Shown piece after piece: positions 11,283 to 63,962 of a stretch of DNA of 64,000 nucleotides. The DNA is taken from contig JAKGHH010000003.1 in the NCBI GenBank assembly GCA_022828595.1, forward strand, positions 56,347,759-56,411,758, written 5' to 3'. A program made the translations under genes and the position numbers. The DNA is from Nelumbo lutea (taxonomy: Eukaryota > Streptophyta > Magnoliopsida > Proteales > Nelumbonaceae). A model generated the notes under the pieces. It saw only the letters and a program-made list of their open reading frames with translations, was not told where the DNA came from and searched no databases. How positions within the stretch are numbered: position 1 is the stretch's first letter; every line of letters starts with the position of its first letter.

Positions 11283-13603
11283 TCACTGCTCTCCTCTGAG
11301 GAGAAACCCGAGATTAGTAGGGTGTCTCCTCAAAGAAAATGACGTCCATTGAGACAAACTTCTTCCCTGAAACAGGATCATAGCAGCAATAACCCTTTTG
11401 AGTTTGTGCATAACCAAGAAAGATGCATTTGGAGGCCCTGGGTTCGAACTTGGAGTGATGGGGTCCGAGAAGCTGAACAAAACATGTACAACCAAATGTT
11501 TTAAGGGGAACAGTAAACAACTCCTCATTTGGGTATAAAAGGGAAAAGGGAGGTTTCATATCAAGAACCCAGGAAGGAACCCGATTAATAAGATATACCA
11601 CTGTGAGGATAGCATCACCCCATAACCGAATAGGGACATTGGAGGTAAACATAATACTGCGAGCCACCTCCAAGATGTGCCTATTCTTCCTTTCTGCAAC
11701 CCCATTCATTTAGCAAAGTATTCCCTTGCATTATCAGATCTAAGAACTTTGATCTTGGCATCAAACTGGGTTAGGATCATTTGGTGGAAGTTTTGGTTCA
11801 GGGCGGGCACTCATCTCGTGAATGCATAAGATAAACCCAAGAAAAACGAGTATGGTCATCAACAAGTGACAAAAAATATCTGTACCCACCCATGGACAAG
11901 ATGTGATATGACCTCCAAACATCAGTATGCACAATATCAAAAGAACTATTACTCCTTTTATTACTCAATGAATAAGAGTTTCTACAATGTTTAGCAAACT
12001 CACAACTTTCACATTTCAATTGGGACAACTCAACTGACTCAAATAAAGTAGGGAACAGATTCTTTAAGGACCGAAAAGACAAATGACCCAATCGGTTATG
12101 CCAAAGCATAACCGGACTCACAATCTGAAAAACAAGTGACTTCTTATCCACTGACTCTTTCCGACAAGAATTCTCCTGGAGCAGATAGATCACAATCGTC
12201 TTACGGCCAGTCTCAATCACCTTCTTCGTCTCCAGGTCCTAAAAAACACATCGGTCAGGGAAGAAAGTTACTGAGCAATTCACATGTTTGGTAATACTAC
12301 TAACTGAAAGAAAGTTAGTATTTAGTTTAGGAACATGCAAGATAGAAGACAAGGAGATAGTATCCGATAGTTTGATGTCTCCATTGCTAGAAATGGGGAC
12401 AAGAGAGCCATCAGCAATAGATACCTTATCCCTACCAGAAGATAAATGATAAGTGGTAAATAATGAAGGCAAGCTAGTCATATGGTCGGATGCACCTGAA
12501 TCTATTACCCAACAGGGTGCAGTAGTACCTGGAGCTGAGGCATGGTAGGCTGAGGCCCGAGTACTTGAATGTGCAAAAGTAGATGTGGCAGGTGCTGATG
12601 GTGACTGCGGTGACTGAGCTGAGTTGCCTACTTCATTTTCCAACTGTATTAGAGCAGCTCGAACTGCAGCTAAGGTCTCTAAAGGTGTGCCTCTTGTGCC
12701 AGACGAGGATGTTGAATCAGTAGTCACTGCCATATGAGCATTACCTTTCTTGCTTCTCAACTTTGCCGGGACCAAATGAGGATGCAACTTCCAACATGTT
12801 TCTTTTGTGTGTTTAGGCTTCTTACAATGCTCACATACCACATCCCTTTTATCTTCCTTCTTCTTGTCCCTTTCTGAATCACCCCCTGATTTGGGTTTAA
12901 CCGCTACAAGGGCCGGTGTAAGAGGCTGAGATTGCATCGTGACTTTCCTCTTGGTCTCCTCACTATGCACTAAGGAGTATGCCTGAGAGAGGGTCACACT
13001 ATCTCTAGTCAAAATCTATTGCTGCACAATATCATACTCTGAATTCAGGCTTGCTAGAAACTCAAACACCCTGTTTGTCTCGATGTGCTTTCTATGGGTC
13101 TGTGCATCTTTGGGACTCTCCCACTCAAGAGTCTCTAAGTGATCGATCTCATGCCACAAGGACTTCAAGGTAGAGAAGTAGACCGAAACCGGTTTCTCTC
13201 CTTGTTTAAGAGTATTCACTTCACATTTCAATTCATATGCTTTGGCAACATTAAGGGGTTGGGAATAAATTTCTTTCATAACATCCCATATCTCCTTGGC
13301 TATCTTTACCCACAAGTAATTTTGACTGATATGGGGCTACATAGAGTTACACAGCCATGTCATAACCAAGTAGTTTTTTTGGACCCACTTGGTATACATG
13401 GGGTCTCCCTTGGAGGGTTCTTTCACATCTCCCAAGAGATACCCTACTTTGCCCCTTCCCCCAATAGCCATCATGGCTAATTAGGCCCATTCCAAATAGT
13501 TTGATCCATCAAATCTTACGGTTGTAATCTAAAAACCTGTCTCAGAAATACTACCATAGCTGTTGTTCCCAAAACTGCCTTCTGCCTAATTCTTAAACTC
13601 CAT
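11283..13603 (-). pseudogene. Ty1/copia gag-protease-integrase, truncated before reverse transcriptase
   Basis: Read on the minus strand from ATG at 13603. The gag region (VRFDGSNYLEWA near 13520, LWHEIDHLE near 13140) is followed by a zinc knuckle, CEHCKKPKHTKETC (CX2CX4HX4C), near 12830. Protease has the active-site WVIDSGASDHM near 12500. The GAG-pre-integrase domain is near 12120 (MLWHNRLGHLSFRSL), and integrase includes FDIVHTDVW and VDDHTRFSWVYL, then MNGVAERKNRHILEVARS from 11709. The frame is broken by only a few lesions: stops in gag, TAG at 13016-13018 and 12239-12241 that leave the surrounding frame intact, and a frameshift around 11800-11710. Homology stops near 11283 at the end of integrase; reverse transcriptase, RNase H and 3' LTR are absent. 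The few lesions suggest it is not very old despite the large loss. Confidence 0.92.
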
Positions 13604-17480: not shown

Positions 17481-18222
17481 TTAGTCAAAATCATCTTTAC
17501 CATTATCTTCAAAATTAATGACATTATTGTCAATGTCCCCATCATTATTGTTAGCATTATTGGACTCAATATAATCTTCATCTTCTTCACCTACTCCAAT
17601 TGATTGTATGGAATCATATGCTTGCTCAATCTCAATACCGGGTGCATCTGTTCTATCCCAACTAACATCATCACCACTTAATGAGATATTGTCTGCCAAG
17701 TTTTGCACACTATGAGGCTTATCTGGTATATCATCATCATCTTCATTCACATCAACATCCCCATGCATATCATATAAGTCTCTAGGCTTTGTCTTAACAA
17801 TAACATGCCAATTTGATTTAATGAGATCTTGGACATAGAATACATGTTTTGCCTGAGAAACTAAAATAAATGGTTCATCTATATGCAACAGGTGATTGAA
17901 GTTGACAAGAGTAAATCCAAATTCGTCAACCTTCATCCCCTTACCTTGAGCAACATCAACCTAGTCACATTTGAATAGCATTACTTTCAAATGCTCATAA
18001 CAGTTCAATTCTATGATATCTGTGAGCACGCCATGATATTAGATATGCAGTCACAACAATGCCACTATTTTGAGTGTTTCTGTTCGCTTCATGTTCCTTT
18101 GTATGAAACTTGAACCCATTTATGCTAACTCCTTTATATCTCTTTGTAGCCATGTATTGGCCGCAGGCCAACCATTTTAAACTGTTCAAAATTTGTTCAT
18201 TTCCCTTAATACACAATTTCAT
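17481..18222 (-). pseudogene. CACTA DUF4216-type region
   Basis: The minus-strand frame at 18222-17995 reads LACGQYMATKRYKG, FKFHTKEHEANRNTQNSGIV. The frame at 17936-17481 reads VDEFGFTLVNFNHLLHIDEP, FILVSQAKHVFYVQD, WHVIVKTKPRDLYDM, then a long acidic tail rich in Asp, Glu and Asn. This order is the DUF4216 domain found at the C-terminus of CACTA TNP2-type proteins. The two frames are separated by a stop and about 60 bp. Confidence 0.8.
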
Positions 18223-18507
18223 TATCTATATAAAATTTAAATGTATTTTATCAGAAACAAGATAGTTGATTAACATCAAATATTTTTCAAAAGGAAACTA
18301 AAAGTATGCATTACTAACATGGTTCATAAATCAATTAGGAAATTCCTTATTGTGAATTCTCTACACAACATGTGGTCGTGATCTAGGGTTCTCTCCACGA
18401 ATCTTTTCAATGTGTTCTCTATAATTGCATAGAATTGTAAACATGAGTCATGGTTATAATGGAGAATTATTCATTAAAAACCTCAAGCATACAACAACCT
18501 AGTCAAC

Positions 18508-20872
18508 TTACTCATTATATGGGCCAACAACATCACAATTGCCTAACACATATAGGTGTGTTTTCATCAGTGTTTCCTTATCTAGTTGAACATTAGAGGG
18601 ACTTCCAATGTCATGGCATATGCCCGAGAAATTTTCAAATCCTTCGTCAAGTGCACGAAGTCTATCCTCTTTATTTCTTATTGGCCTATTTAGCCTAGTT
18701 TCAACACCTTGAAGGTATGTAGAATAGAAAGTCATGCACTCATCCACTATGTATCCCTCAACTATACATCATTCTGGCCTACTTTTATTTCGTACATATG
18801 ACTTTAGTGTACGAAGATACCTATCCATGAAAAAAGAATGAGCAGAAAAAGTTTAATCAATAGATCAATAAAATAGAAAAATGTTCAAATTGAATATAAT
18901 TGGCATACCTCTTTATTGGGTACATCCAACGATACCAAACTGGTCTGGCTAGCCTAGCCTCTTCTGCTAGGTGGATGGGCAAATGTACTATAATGTCAAA
19001 AAATGAAGGTGGGAAAATCATCTCTGACTAACAAAGTACTATTGCAATATTGGATTCTAGACTAGCAAAGTTATAACCCTTTGCAATCGTTAAACATAAG
19101 TCCCTAAAGAACGTGCATAGTTCAACCAAAATAGAACTCACATTCTTCAATAACACCCTCCGTATGGCTGTGGGAAGCAATTGTTGCATCAATATATGGC
19201 ATTCATGATTCTTCAGCCCCTTAAGCTTGTAATTATTATTCACTTGCACTAAGTGTGAAATGTTGGATGCATACGCATTTGGAACCTTTACATTACAAGC
19301 ACTTGACAAAAAATACTCTTTTCTTTCTTACTCATTGTGTAGCATGCTATAGGTAAATAACCAAGCTTAGGGTGAAGTTCTTCTCTTATGGCCACATGTT
19401 GTAAGTCCTGATGAGCTTTTAAGTTGTCTTTTGTCTTCCCTTCAATGTTCAATAATGTCCCCAATAAACTATCACATATTTTTCTCTCTATGCATCACGT
19501 CCAAATTGTGTCGTAACAGGAGATCTTCCTAGTAAAGCAAATTAAAAAGATATGCTTATTTTCTTCCGATTGTGCTTATCACCATTATGATTATTATTAT
19601 TAGAGTTGTCCCCACATTTTTTTTCTTATATCATTAGATTCATTTCCCTTCCCAAGTGTGTACTCTAATCCTTGCACATCATCTATCACTTGCTTCTCTA
19701 TTAATCTTATAGGTGCTAATCTTCACTCCTCATTACCATCAAGTGATGATTTATCATGTTGAAACATATGATTTGCATCTAAGAATCTACGATAACCCAT
19801 ATAACAAAATATTTGGCAATTCTTTAAATTTAGTGAACAAGTATCCCTCTAATACACTAGGCATGCCAATTTATCTTTGGTAAACCACCCTGACAAATTA
19901 GTGTAAGTAGGGAAGTCGTTGATTGTCCAAATGGCAGTTGTTCGCAATGGAAATAACTCTTTATTTGATGCATGCAATACACCATTTTCCCATAAATCAA
20001 TGAAATCTTAAACCAATGGCTGCAAGTATATATCAATATCATTACTTGGTGCATGCGGCCCATGAATCAATAAAGACAACAACATATATGGTTGTTTCAT
20101 GTACATCCAAGGGGATAGATTATAAATGACAAGCACAACAAGCCAAATGCTATAAGAACTATACATTATTTCAATTTGACAAAAACCATCACTTTCCAAC
20201 ACAAGTCTTACATTACATGAATCTAATGCAAATGATGGGGTGTTTTTTGTCAAAAGTTTTTCAACTTGAAGAATCATCAAGATGTCGTAATACCCCATCT
20301 TTCGTACATTCTTCTTCGTGCCATTTCATGGATGAAGAAGTTTTGAATGACATAAATAACCTCTATAGCCTTGGTTGCAAAGGAAAATAGCATAAAACCT
20401 TGGTTGGAATCTTGCCCTTATGTTTAGATGAAGATGTCTCATTGCAATTATTTGTGTTGTAAGAAGGATCCCATCGAAAAGTACCACAAACCTTACAAGT
20501 GTCCCCATTCTCATCTTCCTTCCAATATAACATGCAATCATTAGGGCATGCATGAATCTTAGTATAGTCAAAACTCAGTTGTCTTATGATCTTCCTTGTT
20601 TCATAGTACGAACTCGACAACGCGTCACCTTCTAGTAGAACTTCTTTCAATAATTCAAGTAACATTGTAAATAATTTGTCAGACCACTCATAAAGGCACT
20701 TAATCTGAAATAACCTCACTATAAATGATAATTTTGTGATTTTTTTACAGCCCAGGTGCAAATCTTGTTCAGCATCACCTAACAAATTGTAATATTCTTC
20801 AGCTACTGTATTAGACCCCACCCCTACATATGCATCTGGTCCCTCAGTTTCTTCATTCACTTGTTCATACAC
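18508..20872 (-). pseudogene. CACTA TNP2-type transposase, fragmented
   Basis: From 20872 the minus strand carries the N-terminal TNP2 region (LLELLKEVLLEGDALSSSYY, KIHACPNDCMLYWKEDENGD, CKVCGTFRW), with the conserved Cys residues. It continues in shifted frames with FALDSCNVRLVLESDGF, NLSPWMYMKQPYMLLSLLIH and GPHAPSNDIDIYLQPLV (20298-20008). Later pieces are KLKGLKNHECHILMQQLLP and VELCTFFRDLC (19309-19028; DUF4218 type) and VETRLNRPIRN (18747-18508). At least four frame breaks or stops separate the pieces, so no transposase can be made. Confidence 0.85.
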
Positions 20873-21182
20873 TTGGTTTAATATGCCATGACCCTTTTTC
20901 TTTTTGTTTATAATTCTTTTATTTGATGAAAACCTTTTTCATTCTGGTTATTGCTTTGCCTACAAGCATATCGGTTACAACATTCAGTAAGTGGATTTGT
21001 CTAACATAGTTATGACAGGATATTTCAAGACAAACATCTTACTATTGACTGTTTCAAGCTCGCCAGAGTTGAAGTTGATCCGTCAAACATCTTATATTGT
21101 CGCATTGTTGTGATATGATATTTCAGGATATTTTTTTCAAGAAAAAAAATGTTTTTTTTCTTTTGACAAATAAATAATCAGC

Positions 21183-31247: not shown

Positions 31248-32145
31248 GAGAGCTGTGGTCCGTCGGGGATCGAGTCCGGTCGTTTCCGGTCTGTCAGCAT
31301 TGATGGTGGAATCCGATCGAAGATCGAGAGCCGATTCCAACCTGGTTGAGCAGGTGAAGCCGTGAAGGGACGATTTCTTTGCGAGTCGCTCTGAAACTCA
31401 TGTAAAGGAATGAGCGGAAACAGCTGACACGATCGATCGGGCTTGGATTTCAGGTACTGTTCGGAAGTTTGGCTTTTTAGGTTTTCGTTTGATGTTTCAG
31501 AGGACGAGTTTCGGAAAAATTGATGAAATTTCTGGTAGCAGATCCAGCAGTCTTAAGTTCAGAGGAAGGTGCTTTGAGATTTGAACTCCGAGAATCCGTT
31601 GGAGTATTTTAACATAGTGGAATCTAAGCTAAGAAAGTTTAGTTGAGGTGTCTCAGGTGACTTGTAGCGTGTTTAAGGTACTGCAGGGGTTTGTAGCTTT
31701 GCAAAATCGGATTTTTTCGACTTGTTTCAGATTTTGTGTAATGGGGAAGGTGCAATGGAGAAACCGAATGTGTAGTATCTTGAATTCCAATTTGAGGTGA
31801 GTTTGTTCTCTTCTCAGTCTTTAGTGTTTGTCTAGGGGTTCAGGCTCTCCACTTTGCACTGGTTGCCATTGGAAGCAATCTAAAGAGAAGTTAAGGGTGA
31901 TTGTAGAAGGTGGGCTATAAGAACATTGATTTAGAAATAGAGTCATTTCAGTTTTTTTCGTTTTGTTGGGTGATTTAGGTTTATTTGTAGTGGGCAGAAA
32001 CCTAAGATGCTTAGTAGACTCTAGAGGAAGAAAAAATTGATCTGATTTTGGCCTTTTGAATTGATTCGAAGTTTCATCAGCTTCTTAGATGGAAACCCAG
32101 CAGAAATGAAAGGAATCATTGCTTAGAAACAGAGGGGAAAAAATC

Positions 32146-35100
32146 ATGGAGGATTTGTCCAAATATGCACACAGTCCGGTTCATTTGGCAGTTGCTCGTC
32201 GTGACTACGCCTCTCTCAAACGTATTGTCTCTACCCTCCCACGTCTCCCAAAGGCTGGTGAGGTCACCACCGAAGCCGAGTCCCTTGCTGCTGAGCTCCA
32301 GGCAGATGTTGTCTCTGCTGCCATTGATCGCCGTGATGTCCCTGGCCGCGAGACTCCACTCCACCTTGCTGTCCGCCTCCGTGATCCCATCTCTGCTGAG
32401 ATCCTCATGGCTGCTGGTGCTGACTGGAGCCTCCAGAATGAAAACGGATGGAGTGCTCTTCAAGAAGCTATATGCACCCGCGAAGATTCCATTGCCATGA
32501 TCATTGCCCGGCACTATCAGCCCCTTGCCTGGGCCAAATGGTGCCGCCGGCTACCACGTATTATCTCCTCGGCTGCTCGTATTCGTGATTTCTATATGGA
32601 GATAACTTTCCACTTTGAGAGCTCAGTCATCCCCTTTATTGGTCGCATTGCTCCATCTGATACCTATCGCATTTGGAAGCGTGGTTCGAATCTCCGTGCC
32701 GATATGACCCTTGCTGGTTTTGATGGATTTCGCATACAGCGGTCAGATCAGACCTTTCTGTTCCTTGGAGAAGGCTATTCATCAGATGATAGTAGTGTAT
32801 CTTTACCTCCTGGTTCTCTGATTGTCCTTGCTCACAAAGAGAAGGAAATTACCAGTGCTCTGGAAGGAGCTGGGGCTCAACCTACAGAGACTGAGGTTGC
32901 TCATGAGGTGGCCCTGATGTGTCAGACTAACATGTATAGACCAGGAATTGATGTTACACAGGCTGAGCTTGTTCCACATTTGAATTGGAGGCGGCAAGAG
33001 AGGACTGAAATGGTTGGAAGTTGGAAAGCCAAGGTTTATGATATGCTTCATGTGATGGTGAGTGTAAAGTCCAGGCGTGTTCCTGGTGCAATGACTGATG
33101 AGGAGCTATTTGCTGCAGAGGATGATGAGAGATTGGTCAATGGTGGGGATCATGATGAGTATGATGATATATTGACAGCTGAGGAGCGAATGCAACTAGA
33201 TTCTGCTCTCCGCATGGGAAATTCAGATAGTTTTGTTGACGATGAGGAACATGGGACCTATGACTACCAAGAAAATGGTGTAGTAGGAGGTACTCATGAA
33301 AATTCTGAATCCAATGGTGTTACTAAAGAAAAGAAGAGTTGGCTTGGTTGGAACAAGAAAGGGTCAAAAAATGGAGGCAATGATCCTGAAGATTCAAAGA
33401 TACTGAAGAAGTTCTCCAAGTTGGCTCCAGAAGGGAGCAACCAGAAATTGGTTGATTGTCAGAAGTCATCATCAGAGTTGCCAAAGGATGATTTGGGTGA
33501 TGGTAAAAAGAGTAAAGAGAAAAGTTGTAAGAAGAAGAAGAAAAGTGCATCGACAAGTGAGTCTAAACATGAGAGTGAGTACAAAAAGGGTCTGAGACCT
33601 GTCTTGTGGTTGACTCCAGACTTCCCTTTGAAAACAGATGAGTTTTTGCCCCTACTTGACATTTTAGCAAACAAAGTTAAGGCTGTTAGGAGACTCAGGG
33701 AGCTTTTAACTACTAAACTACCTCCTGGCACATTTCCTGTTAAGGTACTTGGATATTTTCTCTTTCACCTTTGATGTTTTCCAATTACCATTTTTGCCAA
33801 CCAGTATTTGATATTTTGTGATTTATCTGTGGTTATGATCCTGTTATCCAAACTTGTCAGACATCTTCTGCTTGATTGATTTACTGTTATTTGATATGCA
33901 TTCATCCAAATCATGTTGTCTGTTTTATCTCTCCTTTTCAGCTTCACTTACCTTAACTGGTTTTGCCTTGGAAAGCCCAGTTTATCATATTTCCATCAGA
34001 AACACTTGCATTTTATCTTACAAGTGTAATGTGACATGCTTTTTCTTGTTATCATTTTCTATGTTTATCAATTTTATTTATTTTGCATTACAAGCTATAA
34101 AATCTTTATTGTTTGATAATTTTTTTTTGGGTTATTAATTACTAACTTATAATGTTCCCTTATTTACCAAATAGAATCTCGTCATCAAGTCATTGTTTTA
34201 TAGTAAGTTGGTCAGTCTTTCAGTTTTGCCATTTCTGTTTTGATTTTGCTTCATGACATGTCTTCAAGCTGTTCTCTGATGCTAGGAATAGAGAAAAAGG
34301 AAAAAAATAACTTTGTTGTGAAGCCAGTTAAAGGAAGTGCTGTAGTTCAAACTTTTTTCCCTCATCACATTCAGCTCTTGATTCAAATCCCCTCATTTCC
34401 TTTTTTTCCTGACCTGTTCTGCATTTCCATCATTGTCAATTGTGATGCCTTGAATTTTCTTTTTTGTAAGCTTATTGTCATTTAGCTAATAAGCTTTGAT
34501 ACTTATATTTCTGAATTTGCTGGAAAACCATTCATGTTTTATCATTTTAACCATGGTTGATACTTTTGATATCGATCAACATTTCGCCATGTAGAGTTGG
34601 AGATGTTTTGGAGATATTTCGCTACTTTTGCTAAGATATTTGGAAAATCTAGAAAGTCAAAAAAGTTTTCTAGAAACATGGAATTAATTAATAAACCTTC
34701 AAGAGATCATTAGAAGGAATATAATTGCACTCAAAACCATAACAGAGAACTATATAAATCAAATAGGAAAACTTAAGAGATTGTAATAGGTTTGTTTCTC
34801 TTTGTCTCCCATTTGGTCTTTGGCCATCTTTTCTTCTTTATATATGTCAATTATTTTCCATTTAAACTTTTGTCTTTATTATTACTATATATTCTGATTA
34901 GACTGAGAATACTCTTTTGTAGTCATATGCAGTTTTCTTTTTCTTTTGAATTATAGTGACTTAGTAAGTGAATCATATCAAAGTAGTAAGCCAATTATCC
35001 ATTCACCAATTCCCTACTGGTTCTTTTAGGAAAATGTTTTTCAAAAATTATGATTATTTTAATGAAATAGAAAAGCTTTTAATAATATTCCAAAATTTTA

Positions 35101-47345: not shown

Positions 47346-47347
<2 letters not shown>
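46706..47347. other. Gene-free stretch
   Basis: AT-rich. Two copies of TTAATACATCTTATAAG lie near 46814 and 46898. No genes. Confidence 0.4.

Positions 47348-47411
<64 letters not shown>
47348..47411. repeat. (AAT)n microsatellite
   Basis: About 21 uninterrupted trinucleotide units. Confidence 0.95.
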
Positions 47412-47412
<1 letters not shown>

Positions 47413-47447
47413 TGTGTGGCTGTTAATCATGGGGAGGCAATTACTTA

Positions 47448-47709
47448 GGCTGTGTTTGGTTGCAGTGTAAATTTATTTGCAGTAATATAAATGCATGGGA
47501 GTGCAAATGTAAAAAATGTAAATTTTTGTTTAATTTTGTTTTGGATTTTATTTTATTATGCTTCATGTCTTAATTTACTTCATCTGTATTAAAATCAAAC
47601 AAAATAAACTAAAATTTGAAATAAAAATAGGTCAGAATTTACACTCAATTCGTTTGCACTGCCACGATTTTACATCAATGCAAATTTATTTGCATTACAA
47701 CCAAACACA
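47448..47709. mobile_element. Tourist-like MITE, 262 bp
   Basis: The left end GGCTGTGTTTGGTTGCAGTG and the right end CATTACAACCAAACACA (complement TGTGTTTGGTTGTAATG) are inverted. Both arms continue with TAAATTTATTTGCA / TGCAAATTTATTTGCA. TTA lies on each side (47445-47447 and 47710-47712). The outermost three bases of the right end are not the expected GCC, so the right terminus is slightly eroded. Confidence 0.7.
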
Positions 47710-47944
47710 TTAGTGAAAGAATAGTATAGGGAGCAAAAGGTTTCACCTGGTATGCATCATTTTCCTCTATCTATCATTCTAAACAGTATTTTTTCATTTG
47801 GAATCGTAGTTTGTTTCTTTCTTTTCTTTTAATTAATTTGTTCTTTTTTTTTTAAGTTCCTGTTTGTAAAAGTGAATGAGGCAAAGGTATTATTACTAGT
47901 TTGGAAGGTTCTCTTGGGCGTATCTAGCGAATCAATACCCTTTA

Positions 47945-49612: not shown

Positions 49613-52600
49613 ATGGAATTGAATCATAATTCACCCTATTTCCTGCATACCTCAGATAATTTAGAAACTTTGTTGGTATCTTGCCTTTTCAATGGAGACA
49701 ACTACTCGACTTGACAGTGTGTGATGAGAAATTCCTTGAGAGCCAAGAACAAGTATTGCTTTGTTGATGATTCACTACCAAAACCAGATGCAAGGTCACT
49801 GCAAGAATCACTTTCATCAAATGCAATTCAATGGTGACTTTGGCATGTGAACTCCATGATAGTGTTGTCTACGCAGACACAACCAGTGAAATATGGAAAG
49901 ATCTTGAAGAGAGGTTCTTGTAGAAGAATGCACCAATAACCTACCAACTCAAAAAAAAACCTTATAACATCGCAGCAAGGAAATCTTTCGGTAGCAGCCT
50001 ACTTCACCAAATTGAAAGCCCTATGGGATGAGCTCCAAACACTGATTCATGTACCCAAGTGCACTTGTAGAGTGGCTAAACAATTTGTGACCATGCGAGA
50101 AGACAAGAAATTGCATCAGTTTCTCATGAGATTTGGTGATGTCTTCAACAATGTTAGATCCAATATTCTTATATTGGATCATTTTCCAAACATCAATAGG
50201 GCATACGCTCCAACAGTCCAGGAAGAGAAACACCTTGCCATTGTCAATACACCGACCAATGTAGATCTTTATGTCGGAGCAGCACTCTTTGCAAATTTTT
50301 CCAAGAACCGTTCGGTGTCTAATACCCAGACCAAGCCTAAGATGAAATGTGAGCACTGCAAGAAACCTGGGCATACACAAGACCGATGTTTTGAGCTTTC
50401 TGGATATCCATTGAACTGAAACAAAGGTAAACACAAGCAAATAGCAAAGGAACAAAAGCTGCATTTGCTTCAGTTAGTACACAGAATATTGAAGCATCTC
50501 CCATATAGGGATTAAACCTGGGACAATATAATTGGCTTATGACACTCGTAACAACAAATAACATCACAACCAATGCTTATGGTAAGGTTCTTAATAAATC
50601 TCCCCACCAACCTTCTTGGATCTTGGATAGTGGAGTTTTAGATCATATGATCTATGATCTGAAATTCCTTACTATTCATAAAGTGTTGGCCCAACCTAAG
50701 CCAGTTCACTTGCCCAATGGAGTGGTTTTGCAAGCTACACATCAAGGGCCGGTTATGCTGACCCCCGATATTACTCTTCATGAGGTTCTCCATATACTTG
50801 GTTTCCATTGCAATTTGATCTCCATCAACAAATTAACTGATCAATTGCAATGCACCGCCCTTTTTTGCCAACTACTTGTGTGATTCAGGACCTAGTGTCA
50901 AAGAAAGTGATTGGCACAGGTGAAGCATCGAAACGAATCTACCACTTCACTGTTGACGACAATCCATGTTCCTCTGCTTTGGCTGCCCACGGTGAAGTCA
51001 CTGCTGACATATGGCACAAACGCCTAGGTCATGCTTCTTGGCACTCTCTTTCATTAGTTCCTGGCATCTTCACTCTTTCCGTAGGATTGCCATGTGAAAC
51101 TAGTCGTCGTGCAAAGCAATCATGCATTTCATTTCCTATAAGTAGCTTTCAAGCAACGGGACTATTTCATCTAGTCCATGTTGACATTTGGGGCGGTTAT
51201 TCTACTCCTTCTCATAGTGGTGCACAATACTTTCTCACCATAGTGGATGACTTTTCCCTTAGCACTTGGTTGTATTTGATGCACAGTAAAACTCAAGTTC
51301 TTTATTATCTTTCTCAGTTCTACAATATGGTCAAAACACAGGTTTGATGTTCTGTATGAGTCACGTGGACAGATAATGGATTGGAGTTTTTTTCATATCC
51401 CATGAAGAGCTTTTTGTTACAACAAGGAATTGTTCATCAACATTCTTGCGTTGATACACCGCAACAAAATGGTGTGGTCGAGCGCAAGCACATACACTTG
51501 CTTGAGATAGCCCGAGCACTTTGCTTTTAGGCAGGATATCCTCTTTCCTTTTGGGGAGTGTGTAACCATAACAGAATATTTGATCAATTATCTTCCAACT
51601 CAAGTACTCGGTGGGAAGACTCATTTCCAATTGTTGTTTAATCGACCACCGCCATACAATCATATTCGCGTATTTAGCTGCCTGGTCTATGACAAAAATG
51701 ACAGTTGTACTCGTGACAAGTTTACTGTTTGAGCAATTAGAGGAGCGTTTGTTAGATATCCATTTGGGCAAAAGGCTTACAAAATCTTTGATCTGGATTC
51801 CCGGCAAATCTTCACCTGACATGATGTTGTCTTCTATGAAAATCATTTCCCTTTCATGCTGAATGAGTCAACACATGTCACAAATCAGGGGCTGGTTATA
51901 CCATCACCCACTTCTGACAACATTGATTGCCTTCTACATGGTGAGCAAACCATTCAGCCCATCCCGACTCAGACTAACTCAGTCCAGCCTGATCTAGTTT
52001 GCCCTAACCAATGTAACTCCAGCATAACTAACATAACTCAACCTCATCGACAACGAAAAACTCTGGAATAGTTAAGGGATTATGATTGTTAGTTCTTTGG
52101 ATACTCAACTAACTTTCTTCAACATGCGGACACCCTAACTGAACCATGTACATACAATCAAGCAGTTCTTGATCCACGGTGGCAGAAAGCTATGGAAGAT
52201 GAACTTTCAGCATTAAAACAAAATAACACATGGACTCTCGTTGAACTTCCGTTAGGAAAATGAGTCATTGGTGTATGATGGGTGTACAAAATTAAGTATC
52301 GAGTTGATGGAATAGTTGAACGTTATAAGGTGAGACTTGTGGCTAAGGGGTACACTCAGGTCGAGGGCTTGGACTTCCATGACACATACACACCGGTGGC
52401 CAAACTAGTTACAGTCAAGTGCCTTTTGTCAGTTGCTGCCATTCGAGGATGGACTCTTCACCAGCTCAATGCTAACAATGCTTTTCTGAATGGAGATCTC
52501 CATGACGAAGTCTACATGGAAATTCCACCAGGAATGGAGATCTCCATGACGAAGTCTACATGGAAATTCTACCAGGACTTTCTAATCCTGGTGACAACCG

Positions 52601-53723
52601 AGTGTGTAAACTAAACAAATCCCTTTATGGTCTATGGCAAGCCTCTCGACAGTGGTTTAAGAAATTTTAGACACCCTCAAGCAATAGGGCCTCACTCAGT
52701 CATTAAATGACTACTTACTTTTCTTCTCCTCCAATTCAGGTTCATACATTGTCATCCTTATTTACGTCGATGATTTGGTCATCACTGGCAGCAATCTTGA
52801 TCAAATTAATGATCTAAAACAATACCTAAGCAAGTTTTTCCGTCTCAAAGATTCGGAACCACTCACTTATTTCTTGGGGATTTAGGTTCATCACTCTTCA
52901 TCTGAGATTTTTTTTATAGCAATGAAAGTACCTACTTGACATACCACATGAAGCCGACATGACTAGTTGTCACCTAGCATCATTTTCAATGGAACAACAA
53001 CTACGGTTTGATGAACAAACTCCCTTCCAGACCCTAGTCATTTCCATCATCTCATTGGCCGACTAGTGTATTTAACCATTACACAACTAAAGCTTTGTTA
53101 CTCTATTCACGCCCTCAATCAACATATGCAACACCCAACTGAAGATCACATGACTACAGCCTTATGCATCCTCAGATATCTCTCTACCTTTCTAGACAAA
53201 GGCCATTTCTTACCTTCATCAAATGACTTTAGTGTTCAAGACTATTGTGATGCTGACTGGGGTAGTTGCAATTGTCTAATCTCCCAACGATCCACAATGG
53301 GTGTGATCTTTGTCGATAATTCACCTGTATCTTGGAAGACAAAGAAACAAAACACTGTAGCCTGCTCATCCACCGAGGCAGAATATCATGCAATGGCCTC
53401 TACCACCACAGAATTGCTCTGGCTCAAACACCTCCTCGTAGATCTCAACATTTCTATCACTCAGCCTTTATTGCTTCATTGCGATAATCAAGTGGCCCTT
53501 CATATAGCAACAAATCTAGTTTTTTCACGAACAGACGAAGCATATAGAAATTGATTGTCACTTCCTACATGAGCATGTTTAAGCCAAGACAATCAAGACC
53601 TCTCACCTTCCAACAGAGGAACAACCAGCTGACTCGTTCACCAAAGCCTTAGGAGCTGATAGATTTCATTATCTACTTGGCAAGTTGGGTATTCGTTCCC
53701 TTCATGCCCAACTTGATGGGAGG
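49613..53723 (+). pseudogene. Ty1/copia gag-pol, full-length but degenerate
   Basis: Gag starts at ATG 49613 (MELNHNSPYFLHTSDN) and soon meets stops; its zinc knuckle CEHCKKPGHTQDRC is near 50347. Protease has WILDSGVLDHM near 50617. The GAG-pre-integrase region (WHKRLGHASWHSLS) is near 51014, and integrase (LFHLVHVDIWGGYS, IVDDFSLSTWLYLMH) runs on with frame breaks past 51361. Reverse transcriptase begins near 52282 with [18 protein letters not shown] and [15 protein letters not shown], then has a 44-bp tandem duplication that shifts the frame. The catalytic YVDD is intact at 52763-52774. RNase H (SCNCLISQRSTMGVIFVDNS, ACSSTEAEYHAMA, LLLHCDNQVALHIA) is open from 53066 to 53554. Domain order is standard for Ty1/copia. 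Many stops mean it cannot act on its own. Confidence 0.93.
52489..52576 (+). repeat. 44-bp tandem duplication inside reverse transcriptase
   Basis: AATGGAGATCTCCATGACGA begins at 52489 and again at 52533, with one base different over 44 bp. The length is not a multiple of three, so it breaks the frame. The near-identity makes it one of the latest events in this element. Confidence 0.95.
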
Positions 53724-55995: not shown

Positions 55996-58900
55996 ATGGA
56001 CGGGGAACAGCAGACAATGAAGAGAAGAGAGTGTCATCCTCTACTCAGAGGAGGAAGGAGACAAGGCAGCTACAGTCATGGGTTTTCTTTATCTGAGATG
56101 CAAGTAGTCACTGCCATCTGTGAGGCTCTCATACCGCCTATCCCACTAGGTTCTCTCCATGTCAACGGCAAAGAAAGCCCACCCAGCAAAAGTATTCAGT
56201 CCTTCTACCTTGCTTCTGGCTCTCAGAAGCCTATCCCTGATGAGGTGACGGTTGTTGAACTTATGGGTCTCTCTATTTTCTCTTTGCTTGGTTCATTACT
56301 GGAAGTGATTACTGATAAGCTTCTTTTGTGAGTTTTCTTCATATTATTTTGCCTGATAAAAGTTGGGTTTTGATTGTTGAAAAGCGTTTGGTTCTTAGTT
56401 TTGCGGGTCTTCTTAGTGATTTGCAATTCCAACTTAAATGGATTAACTAACCAATTAATTAAACCACGCTCTCTGGGCTGGTGCCTGGTGGGTTCTTATT
56501 AATAGACTGCACTGCTATAACAATCTGCTTTAAATGTTATCTGTTCTTTCCTTCTTAATTTTTCTGTAATTCTTCTTATTTTATATTTTTAAATAGATAT
56601 TATATTGACTTTTGCAGTGTTCCAGTTCTGAAATATTACTTGGTGATTACAGGTTGCAGAGCTTATGGTCACGAAGGCATTATGGCATGGCGTTCTCGTA
56701 GTGCGACTGCTTCTGTGGATGCTCTCAACCAGATTGGGAACACTACTGATTTGTGGTACTCTAAGCTTTGGTTCCCGATGGCCATTCCTTTGCAAGTTCT
56801 CAGAATTATCCTTGGAGAAAAGAGAAGAGGTTCTGAAGAAATGGTCAAGGGCGAGGTATCAGATACACCTGAGACTAATGTTTGCCATATTCAAAATCTT
56901 CTGTTGCTTCGCATTTTTCAGCCTGGTAAAGCTCCTCACCATTAAATCTTTCTCTTCCATCCAAAATTTCTTTGCTATTTCCAGTTATGTTGAGTCTTGT
57001 TCTCAGAGAAGTATAGAGATTGTTCATTCAGTTTCTTTTATTTTTTTATTATTATTGGACTGGTTCAGGCTTTTGGAGGTGACCCAGAAATCCAGTAAAA
57101 TAAATGCCCCATTTGAATTTCAAAAGATGATTTAGATCACGTTTCTTTCTTTCTATGTTTATTTAATTATTTATTTATTCCTTCACCCTTAGAAAATGTT
57201 TTATTTTTCCTAGAAAAGCTGTAGATGTATCAGTTTTTCTACAAAACCTGTAGGTTTTTTTCAAAGCCCTGAAAAAGACTCAGATCTCTCTCTCTCTCTA
57301 AAAACAAATCAAATGCATACATGTGCAAATTTATTTTAAAACTTATAACTAGGAGCAATGTAAATGGATGTTGAACTGGCAGATCCTTTTATTTATTTTT
57401 GGTGCTATAGAGAGTGAATCTCATGGTCTCAAAAGTTGATTCCGTTTGTTCCCTTTCTGTACCAGACTGATGAAAATTCAACAAACCCAGCATGGGATGC
57501 GATTGGGTATCATGTAGACACATATGAGAGCTCACACAAAACAGACAAGAAGAGGCCCCTCCAGAAAGGAATCATAGAAACAATTAATGAATCTGATTCA
57601 ACTCTTGTCCAATCCCTCACCCAAAAAGGCTTCAAAGTCACTGAAGATCCAAAGAGGAACCTCCACAAAATTGAGTGTGATGTTGTGGTGGTTGGCTCTG
57701 GTTGTGGTGGGGGAGTAGCAGCTTCAGTCCTTGCAAGTTCTGGACAAAAAGTCATTGTCCTTGAGAAAGGCAATTACTTCACCCCTGATGATTATTCTTC
57801 TGTGGAGGGCCCCTCCTTGAACCAACTATACGAATCAGGAGGATTGCTATCAACTATTGATGGGAAAGTGATGATAATGGCTGGATCTACAGTCGGTGGT
57901 GGTTCTGCTGTGAACTGGTCTGCATCCATCAAAACACCCAGTTCTGTGCTCAGGGAGTGGTTTGTTGGTCACAAGATTCCACTTTTTGGTAGCTCTGATT
58001 ATCTCTCTGCCATGGATGTTGTGCTCAAAAGGAATGGTGTCACAGAAAACTGTGTCAAGGAAGGACTACAGAATCAAGTCCTTCGAAAAGGGTGTGAAAA
58101 TCTCGGTCTGAAAGTTGAGTCTGTGCCACGGAATTCCTCGGAGAACCATTACTGTGGATCTTGTGGTTTTGGTTGTAGGAGAGGAGATAAACGAGGGACT
58201 GATACTACTTGGCTGGTAGATGCTGTAGATCATGGTGCTGTGATCTTAACAGGATGCTTAGCCAAGAGGTTCATGTTGGAAAAGAATAACCATGGTAGAA
58301 CTAAAAAGAAGAAATGCTTGGGAGTGATGGCAAGAACTTACAGTAAGAATATCACAAAGGAATTGCAAATTGAGGCAAAGGTAACAATCTCAGCATGTGG
58401 GTCTCTCTTGACACCTCCTTTAATGATATCTAGTGGGTTGAAAAATCCAAACATTGGCAAGAACCTGCATCTCCATCCTGTTACAATGGCATGGGGATAT
58501 TTCCCCGAGTCGATGCCAGAGCTTAAAGGGAAAGCATTTGAGGGGGGAATAATCACATCAATACATAAGGTGGTCACAGAAAAATCTGATGTTCAGGCCA
58601 TCATTGAAACTCCTGCACTTGGGCCTGCTGCATTTGGCTCATTGGTCCCTTGGGTGTCAGGGCTTGATATGAAGAAGAGGATGGTAAAATATGCAAGGAC
58701 TGCTCACTTGTTTGCACTGATCAGGGATCAGGGTTCAGGAGAAGTGAAATCCTGGGGAATGATAACATATGAATTTAGCAAGTCAGACAAGGAGAACCTT
58801 AAGGCAGGATTGCGGCAAGCCTTGAGGATTTTGATTGCAGCAGGAGCTGTTGAAGTGGGCACTCATCGAAATGATGGGCAGAGAATAAAATGCAAAGGGA

Positions 58901-59217
58901 TTAAGGAGGAAGATTTGGAGGAATTCTTGGAAACAGTTACTACAGCAGGAGGTATTCTGTCAGGGGAAGAGAACTGGACCTTATATTCCTCTGCTCATCA
59001 GATGGGGAGTTGTAGGATGAGTTCTACTGAGAAAGAAGGTGCAGTTGATGAGAATGGAGAAAGTTGGGAAGCAGAAGGCCTATATGTATGTGATGGAAGT
59101 GTTTTGCCGAATGCAGTTGGGGTTAATCCCATGATCACAATCCAGTCCATTGCTTACTGCCTGTCAAAGAAGATTGCTAAATCATTGAACAAGGACAAAT
59201 TCTCTGAGGGCACATAA
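55996..59217 (+). CDS. FAO: Long-chain fatty alcohol oxidase (GMC family)
   Basis: Three exons, 55996-56244, 56653-56925 and 57466-59217, give 757 residues, the usual length for plant FAO. Both introns are phase 0: GATGAG|GTGACG...TTACAG|GTTGCA and AGCCTG|GTAAAG...TACCAG|ACTGAT. Family knowledge: this class oxidises long-chain fatty alcohols to aldehydes with O2, releasing H2O2 (EC 1.1.3.20 type), and is membrane-bound. Exon 2 carries two hydrophobic segments ([20 protein letters not shown] and [19 protein letters not shown]). Exon 3 opens with [13 protein letters not shown], then the FAD dinucleotide-binding motif [20 protein letters not shown] at about residues 247-266 with [10 protein letters not shown]. 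The GMC signature [16 protein letters not shown] follows. The C-terminus has the active-site block [11 protein letters not shown] (catalytic His) and [20 protein letters not shown] (catalytic Asn in NPM). No stop or frameshift is present; it looks functional. Confidence 0.97.
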
Positions 59218-62182: not shown

Positions 62183-62207
62183 TAATAATAATAATAATAA
62201 TAATAAT
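62183..62207. repeat. (AAT)n flanking the Pack-MULE-like element, left
   Basis: Eight AAT units ending exactly at the element's left end. A similar run (63564-63587) begins at its right end. Confidence 0.92.
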
Positions 62208-63562
62208 GGTAAAATACAAAAACCTCCCCTCTATTTCTTGACAAAATTAATTAATACCTCCCTTTCATCAATTATCAAGACGGAAAGCGTTAAAGAGAAT
62301 ATCATTTTTTCAAAATGTTTATTTTGCCCTTCATTTTTTCAAAATACCTATTTTACCCTTTCTAAACATTGTTCATCTTCTTCTGCGTTGGAACCCAGAA
62401 GCAGAAGTAGAGGCAGCGGTGGGTCAGAGAGAACATTCAAACTGTAATACAGGGATTGAAACCGTGTATTTTACTATTAATTAAACAAAGGTTAAGAATA
62501 TTTTATTTTATTACTTTTTATGAGAAATCGAGAACAGTTTTCTTGAAGGAAGAGGAACAATTGTCAAGAATAGATTTTCCTTTGGTACCCAAAGAACTGT
62601 TCATTTATTTATTGAATTTAAAATTCATAATATTCACGACCGCCCAGAACCCCCCAACGACCTTTCGAATGCCCAGAAGGCACAGTTGAGGATCCCCTTC
62701 AGGAGATTGAGATCCAGGAAGCCCAAGTCTAAACTGTGTGGCTTTCAGATACAGACTGTTTTTAGCCATTCTGGCAGCTACCATCAATAGAGTGCGATGA
62801 AACAACTGAGACATTGCTGTCCCTCCCCAACACCGAGCAGTGGTAGAGACATTAGGTTTCCGGAACTAAAAAGTTTTCCTCCCAAGCTGCTGGCATTCAA
62901 ACCATCCTTTAGATAAAACTTAAAATTCTCATAAAAGTTGAAGAAAGCCAAAAATTTAATCATTTCAAAGCTGAAAATGAGACTTAACATCAAGTCGAAT
63001 AATTAGATACTACGACTGCGGAGGACGATAAAAACCAATCACAGATGCTGACATATTCCACTTCTTTATAGGGCTGTCGAAAGGTCACCGAGGGGTTTTG
63101 GGCGTTCGTTAATATTATGAATTTTAAATTCAATAAATAAATAAACAGTCTTGCTGTGCATTCTGTAAATTTACACGAGATTCAAAATTCTTTTTTGGGT
63201 ACCAAACGAATTCATTCATTAAACTCGGAAAATCTGTTCTTGACAATTGTTCCTCTTCCTTCAAGAAAACTGTTCTCAATTTCTTATAAATAGTAAAACA
63301 AAATATTCTTAACCTTTGTTTAATTAATAGTAAAATACACGGTTTCAATCCCTGTATTACAGTTTGAATGTCCTCACTGACCCACCGCTGGCTCTGCTTC
63401 TGGGTTTAAACGGAGAAAAAGATGAACAGTATTTAAAAAAGGGTAAAATTGGTATTTAAAAAAATGATAATCTCTTTAACGTTTTCCATCTTGGGCATTG
63501 ATGGAAGGGAGGTACTTGTTAATTTTTTTCAAAAATAGAGAGGAGGTTTTTGTATTTTACCC
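62208..63562 (-). mobile_element. Pack-MULE-like element with long inverted repeats and a captured Aux/IAA fragment
   Basis: The left arm (62208-62670, from GGTAAAATACAAAAACCTCC) and the right arm (63562-63079, from GGGTAAAATACAAAAACCTC on the complement) are inverted repeats of about 460-480 bp. Inner stretches are nearly identical, for example TACAGGGATTGAAACCGTGT, then TTAATTAAACAAAGGTTAAG, in both arms. The right arm carries an extra 40-60 bp segment. The element lies between (AAT)n runs, so AATAATAAT is on both sides; this agrees with a 9-bp Mutator target duplication but is not diagnostic in a microsatellite. The 408-bp centre contains an Aux/IAA gene piece (separate entry) and no transposase. 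Long arms plus captured gene sequence are the Pack-MULE pattern. Orientation given is that of the captured fragment. Confidence 0.82.
62672..62852 (-). pseudogene. Captured Aux/IAA (IAA8/IAA9-like) N-terminal fragment
   Basis: From ATG at 62852 the minus strand reads MSLPLLGVGEGQQ, like the MSPPLLGVGEEEG start of IAA8/9-type Aux/IAA repressors. After a one-base shift it continues NVSVVSSHSIDGSCQNG, a Ser-rich stretch also found in these proteins. In another frame near 62750-62675 it reads NSLYLKATQFRLGLPGSQSP then EGDPQLCLLG, which is domain I. The repressor (EAR) motif is normally LRLGLPG; the first Leu is Phe here. At least one frameshift and one stop separate the parts, and domains II-IV are absent, so no functional Aux/IAA can be made. 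Upstream bases to about 63078 may be captured leader or promoter sequence. Aux/IAA proteins repress auxin-response genes; a transcribed fragment could at most act through RNA. Confidence 0.8.
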
Positions 63563-63884
63563 TAATAATAATAATAATAATAATAATCATGAGTATCAAC
63601 ACCTTGAATCGTACAATATGCAATTGAATATCATGCGTATTGATACTCTGAAATTCCCGCAGGGGGGAGGGAGTGAAACAATGATTCATTAATTTGACAA
63701 TTTGTCCGTGTTTGCCACAGCATTATTCAAGATCTCTTACTTGAACCTCCATTGGAACCTCCTTTGAAGCTTCTTACCACTCTTCCCTTTTGCCCAAACC
63801 CAAATTCGTATGCTCCCTTACCCATACATGAAATTACATTTACAAGAAAAGAATCAAGTGTATGCTACAATATGTGGATTGAAG
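63563..63884. other. Intergenic and probable 3' UTR of the succinyl-CoA ligase gene
   Basis: The right (AAT)n run, then non-coding sequence. The part next to 63885 is expected to be the 3' UTR of the minus-strand gene. Confidence 0.5.
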
Positions 63885-63962
63885 TTAACTTGCTGCTGCT
63901 TTAACTGCTTTCTCAGCTGCATCATCTAGATCTTCCGCAGTAATCAATGTCATCCCACTCTC
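63885..63962 (-). CDS. Succinyl-CoA ligase beta subunit, mitochondrial (last exon only)
   Basis: On the minus strand, after an acceptor GCTATAG at 63969-63963, the exon encodes ESGMTLITAEDLDDAAEKAV then KAAAS and a TAA stop at 63887-63885. This is the conserved C-terminus of plant ADP-forming succinyl-CoA ligase beta subunits, where the preceding exon ends in a GKRILK-like sequence. The enzyme belongs to the mitochondrial TCA cycle and interconverts succinyl-CoA and succinate with nucleotide phosphorylation. Other exons lie beyond the right edge. The gene is convergent with FAO. The exon is only 26 codons long, so the call rests on a short but distinctive match recalled from the family. Confidence 0.72.
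   Translation of the reverse strand, partial: ESGMTLITAEDLDDAAEKAVKAAAS

Follow-up and report, generated by a model that had tools for sequence, protein, structure and literature searches.

The inverted structure of about 1.35 kb at positions 62208-63561 of a 64-kb stretch of the Nelumbo lutea genome (contig JAKGHH010000003.1; "the window" below means this whole stretch) raises the question of what kind of element it is, how long its cargo has been there, and whether it could act on the gene from which that cargo came. An earlier note, made from the letters alone, had read it as a fairly recent Pack-MULE-like element that captured the start of an Aux/IAA gene and could produce small RNAs against the parent. 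Our analysis indicates that it is likely a Pack-MULE of a lotus-type plant, an old and non-autonomous Mutator-like transposon with a decayed 5' fragment of the auxin-response gene IAA9 between long terminal inverted repeats (TIRs). Pack-MULE-like is a fair label, the superfamily assignment resting on anatomy: TIRs of 467 and 491 bp, as in Mutator-like elements (MULEs); a fragment of a host gene, IAA9, between them, as in Pack-MULEs; and a microsatellite directly at both ends, as in the SaTar and MuTAnT elements. The parts of the element are as follows (Tandem Repeats Finder for the microsatellites; E, expectation value; HSP, high-scoring segment pair).

62183-62206, plus strand: (TAA)8 microsatellite, left end
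62208-62674, plus strand: left TIR, outer end GGTAAAATACAAAAACC, with a 29-nt tandem duplication at 62302-62360
62675-63070, no strand: centre between the arms, 396 nt, from inverted-repeat pair I4
62674-62763, minus strand: IAA9 piece C, KNSLYLKATQFRLGLPGSQSPEGDPQLCLL, in agreement with Nelumbo IAA9 at 24 of 30 residues, FRLGL in place of LRLGL in the EAR motif
62765-62818, minus strand: IAA9 piece B, SNVSVVSSHSIDGSCQNG, 16 of 18 residues equal to Nelumbo IAA9
62817-62852, minus strand: IAA9 piece A, which holds the start codon, MSLPLLGVGEGQ, 11 of 12 residues equal
62853-62888, minus strand: IAA9 5' leader in the frame of the ATG, SLGGKLFSSGNL, 11 of 12 residues equal to the extension of Nelumbo isoform X2
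62889-63070, minus strand: remaining centre, possibly parental 5' intron or leader; no HSP from 121 proteins at E 0.01
63071-63561, minus strand: right TIR, with about 62 nt of sequence that the left arm does not have
63563-63586, plus strand: (TAA)8 microsatellite, right end, oriented as the left

Identity and decay of the captured fragment

The cargo was searched for with 121 IAA9-like proteins, namely P0001, P0002 and 119 of the 120 matches listed out of 666, which had been gathered by similarity to pieces of the window or to P0001, so that all were expected to match and the set samples plants with a bias; the statistical weight therefore rests on the control sequences. In tblastn against the window (E 0.01) all 121 proteins matched, giving 123 HSPs that all lie on the minus strand within 62659-62888, and the 21 control windows (one reversed, 20 block-shuffled) gave none at the same cut-off. 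Nearly all proteins match with a single stretch, P0001 and P0147 with two. The best match is P0001, auxin-responsive protein IAA9 isoform X2 of Nelumbo nucifera, with a summed tblastn score of 98.2 against 71.7 for the next of the 121; over pieces A to C it agrees with the fragment at 51 of 60 residues, the next protein at 44. A second N. nucifera protein, P0123, was rejected as the parent, with 42 of 60 residues equal. For the leader upstream of the ATG, too, P0001 is the closest protein: its N-terminal extension scores 53, the second best of the 121 scores 28. The Aux/IAA pieces proposed for the minus strand of the centre, including the three peptides quoted in the earlier note and the leader, are thus present, although of the 396 bases in the centre no more than about 215 are attributable to IAA9.

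Capture of an IAA8/9-type gene start by an apparently MULE-like element is supported, because protein identity halts at the left arm without continuing outside: it ends at CLL, at 62674, which is the inner edge of that arm. The expectation that gene similarity would stop at both arms holds on this side; on the right, the match of P0001 starts at 62888, directly after CCAGCAG and 182 bp short of the arm. With a splice acceptor after CCAGCAG, the deviating first nine residues of the isoform would be accounted for, and 62889-63070 would possibly be parental intron or leader. Beyond the arms there is no Aux/IAA similarity, as had been anticipated: no HSP falls outside 62659-62888 in the window at E 0.01.

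The fragment is no longer a coding sequence. Pieces A, B and C lie in three different frames, and the reading frame from the ATG runs for 22 residues before a stop. The shift from A to B probably reflects a net loss of 2 nt. From B to C a single nucleotide of the window stands in for 29 residues (87 nt) of the parent, a net loss of about 86 nt as reckoned from protein coordinates. The altered FRLGL lies in what we take to be the EAR motif, of pattern LxLxL. Neither the degron nor domains III and IV were found, matches of P0001 outside the centre having E values of 4.3 or worse in the window, and there is no open frame through domains I-IV as in a functional Aux/IAA gene. The element would yield no Aux/IAA repressor.

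Structure of the arms

The inverted arms described earlier are real, with lengths of 467 and 491 bp around a 396-nt centre in place of the 460-480 bp and 408 bp first given. Pairs I1-I7 of the repeat search jointly cover 62185-62674 against 63071-63584. A gapped alignment of 62208-62679 with 63061-63561, a range whose inner end includes some columns aligned by chance, gives 392 matches, 37 mismatches and 115 gap columns, corresponding to an ungapped identity of 91.4% (392 of 429 columns) and a Kimura two-parameter (K2P) distance of 0.092; its score is 560.5, whereas shuffling the right arm 100 times gave no score above 37.5. The gaps come mainly from the 29-nt tandem duplication of the left arm and from two additional stretches in the right arm, of about 20 and 42 nt. 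Identity by 40-column block (29 columns in the last) ranges from 79% to 100% and is lowest in the innermost block, so that the close similarity claimed for the arms applies fully to two mid-arm blocks (100%) and not to their whole length.

The outer ends of both arms read GGTAAAATACAAAAACC, and within the window the outer 17 bases occur exactly only at the two element ends, with one further site at three mismatches (shuffles average 0.42, all matches counted). A 31-base word from the arm gave no match in a scan of viral contigs, which may omit records of the window's own genome. Pfam assigned no family to any of four frames, two raw ones from the centre and two from the flanks.

Flanking microsatellites and the mode of insertion

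The TAA flanks at both ends are a newly noted trait, as in microsatellite-targeting MULEs. Each (TAA)8 array is 24 bp long and adjoins the element in direct orientation; TAA-type arrays of at least six units number three in the 64 kb, the sole other lying at 47347-47412. Unlike the inverted arms, the arrays share one orientation, and so they are most likely target sequence, present as a duplicated or split microsatellite. The same orientation bears on an origin without any transposon, in which an inverted duplication of host DNA would by chance flank an IAA9 pseudogene. Such a duplication would account for the single copy known here and for the lack of a visible transposase in the window, but the arms end at equal direct TAA arrays, and arrays included in an inverted duplication would make one of them read TTA, which argues against it; we consider this origin highly improbable.

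The TAA flanks also bear on the superfamily. All main TIR superfamilies potentially form Pack-TYPE elements (PMC8903248), and a gene-carrying element of another superfamily, above all PIF/Harbinger (Pack-PIF), has to be weighed. We regard it as unlikely. PIF/Harbinger elements produce a 3-bp TWA (TAA or TTA) duplication at insertion and have short TIRs; TAA at both ends would suit such a duplication, whereas arms of 467-491 bp contrast with short TIRs. Inspection by eye also shows elsewhere in the window a presumably Tourist-like element whose ends (GGCTGTGTTTGGTTG), with TTA on both sides, are quite unlike these.

Some observations weigh against a Pack-MULE. Within the window we found no transposase-bearing relative and, at E 0.01, no second copy of an arm. 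The capture border on the 63070 side is putative, the parent having been picked from proteins only. Finally, the 24-bp direct arrays include a 9-bp direct repeat, but the length of a duplication is not definable inside the repeat, so that a 9-bp duplication is indistinguishable from the TAA repeat itself and one of 3 bp (TAA) fits PIF/Harbinger equally well.

As a Pack-MULE, the element would have been mobilised by a MULE transposase acting in trans, its IAA9 fragment having been copied from genomic DNA, perhaps including the 3' end of a leader intron. It would then have inserted into a TAA microsatellite, where any target duplication of 8-11 bp would be concealed in the repeat. There is precedent in the MuTAnT elements of Medicago, for which 204 of 218 copies are reported in perfect TA arrays that hide the duplication while the remaining 14 indicate 9 nt (PMC4486113), and SaTar MULEs have also been reported in microsatellites (PMC5907723).

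Age and silencing potential

The suggestion of a fairly recent event does not survive the comparison of the arms: the K2P distance of 9.2%, the two frame-breaking losses and the altered EAR motif indicate that the capture is not recent. If the substitution rate per site is assumed to lie between 2.5e-9 and 1.3e-8 a year, this distance corresponds to about 3.5-18 million years, an estimate that presumes originally identical arms. The split between N. lutea and N. nucifera has been dated to about 13.86 million years (PMC9325450).

When the element is folded in full by prediction, the left arm has 397 (plus strand) or 400 (minus strand) of its 467 bases paired with the right arm, whereas none of the 396 centre bases pairs with either arm on either strand, 208 (plus) and 252 (minus) being paired within the centre. 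The arms have 85 perfect 21-mers in common, and the 396-nt centre has no 21-mer in common with its own complement. Since the predicted stem consists of the arms only, Dicer products would match the arms and not IAA9. If the element were transcribed through, its arms would fold into double-stranded RNA and the resulting small RNAs would silence the transposon family; self-silencing of this kind, and not silencing of IAA9, is what the fold predicts. That paired TIRs fold back, feed small interfering RNAs and attract methylation has been put forward as a hypothesis (PMC4858842).

The hairpin had earlier been expected to give small RNAs matching the parent gene, but this does not follow from the predicted fold. 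A working silencer of IAA9, acting through small RNAs or antisense RNA, would draw on the stable hairpin predicted for the long arms and on the report that at least 10 lotus Pack-MULEs are expressed (PMC4053705). However, the captured piece lies in the loop, with no base paired to the arms and no self-complementary 21-mer, and, besides the two losses, 9 of its 60 residues are unlike those of the parent protein, which leaves such a silencer barely any probability. Antisense transcription starting from the left arm and crossing the fragment is a possible route to RNA matching the parent.

Neighbouring features

Just past the right TAA array, a nine-base inverted repeat (GAGTATCAA / TTGATACTC) spans 63591-63648. 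Farther out, a minus-strand reading at 63885-63962 (ESGMTLITAEDLDDAAEKAVKAAAS, then a stop) resembles the end of a gene, which would place the element about 320 bp past that stop codon. On the other side, a large exon at 57418-59214 encodes a 599-residue reading of a FAO2-like long-chain-alcohol oxidase with GMC oxidoreductase domains. It is identical to the N. nucifera FAO2-like protein at 570 of 587 aligned residues, the best of the 120 matches listed out of 1918, among which a second lotus protein reaches 79% and the other rows 76% or less; three of the 17 differences are among the first aligned residues, a place at which the reading may enter an intron. This match makes Nelumbo very probable as the genus, and the differences are compatible with N. 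lutea, with another accession or with a paralogue. An exon with ankyrin and ANKRD13_C domains lies at 32110-33771.

Other repeats are also present. The small element at 47448-47709, which we take to be Tourist-like (PIF/Harbinger), has the ends GGCTGTGTTTGGTTG / CAACCAAACACA with TTA at 47445-47447 and 47710-47712, and lies near an (ATA)22 array at 47347-47412. Stop-broken frames at 297-1926, 11314-13015 and 49940-53554 resemble what are presumably gypsy- and copia-type polyproteins, and minus-strand frames at 17481-20938 a transposase that we take to be of the CACTA/En-Spm type; Pfam gave no family for 20363-20935 within the latter. In the window no Rfam family reached its gathering score and ARAGORN found no tRNA.

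Comparison with known elements

For sacred lotus, 1,447 Pack-MULEs have been reported, of which at least 10 are expressed according to expressed sequence tags (PMC4053705). With these the element has in common long inverted ends, a fragment of a host gene, the absence of an internal transposase and a lotus-type genome; it differs in that its target duplication is masked by a TAA microsatellite and that one copy is seen, and it may itself be among the 1,447. It is likely one more gene-carrying Mutator-like transposon of lotus and mostly ordinary, and with so many already reported, the earlier opinion that the capture is worth describing carries little weight. No Aux/IAA Pack-MULE of lotus was found in literature abstracts, and the list of 1,447 may include this one. 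Acquisition by Pack-MULEs is reportedly biased in favour of 5' gene ends, as Jiang et al. are said to have described in 2011. Isoform X2 of N. nucifera IAA9 (P0001) has the leader SLGGKL.SSGNL in common with the captured piece, as well as 51 of the 60 residues of pieces A to C. Unlike that protein, the captured piece has neither the degron nor domains III and IV, is broken in its frame and carries FRLGL in the EAR motif. What the locus contributes is one element added to a large known class and a correction of the notion that its hairpin silences IAA9.

Its less usual trait is the combination of a gene fragment with microsatellite flanks, which may already have been reported. The MuTAnT elements of Medicago truncatula share with it long foldback-type TIRs starting with a run of G, a microsatellite on both sides and frequent proximity to genes (PMC4486113). 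They target TA, whereas the lotus element sits in TAA, and the main text of that paper is without the words "captur" and "gene fragment" (PMC4486113). The SaTar elements of guayule and rice are likewise non-autonomous MULEs, of about 380-1900 bp, with microsatellite flanks that are often but not only TA, and an autonomous relative is reported to have 400-bp TIRs (PMC5907723). In contrast to the 467-491 bp found here, the TIRs of non-autonomous guayule SaTar elements measure 40-250 bp; rSaTar1, 3 and 5 are classed as non-Pack-MULEs, whereas the lotus element carries a gene fragment (PMC5907723), and no array of elements is seen at the lotus locus. We tentatively consider, as possible rather than probable, a "Pack-SaTar", in other words a MULE with gene cargo and a preference for TAA microsatellites; it would unite gene capture with microsatellite homing, two traits that the papers cited here treat separately. 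If this were so, captured pieces of leader and start codon would be delivered preferentially to gene-adjacent microsatellites, and such a family, if it both carries genes and homes to TAA repeats, would connect exon shuffling with insertion targeted to microsatellites, in a way that is testable in lotus.
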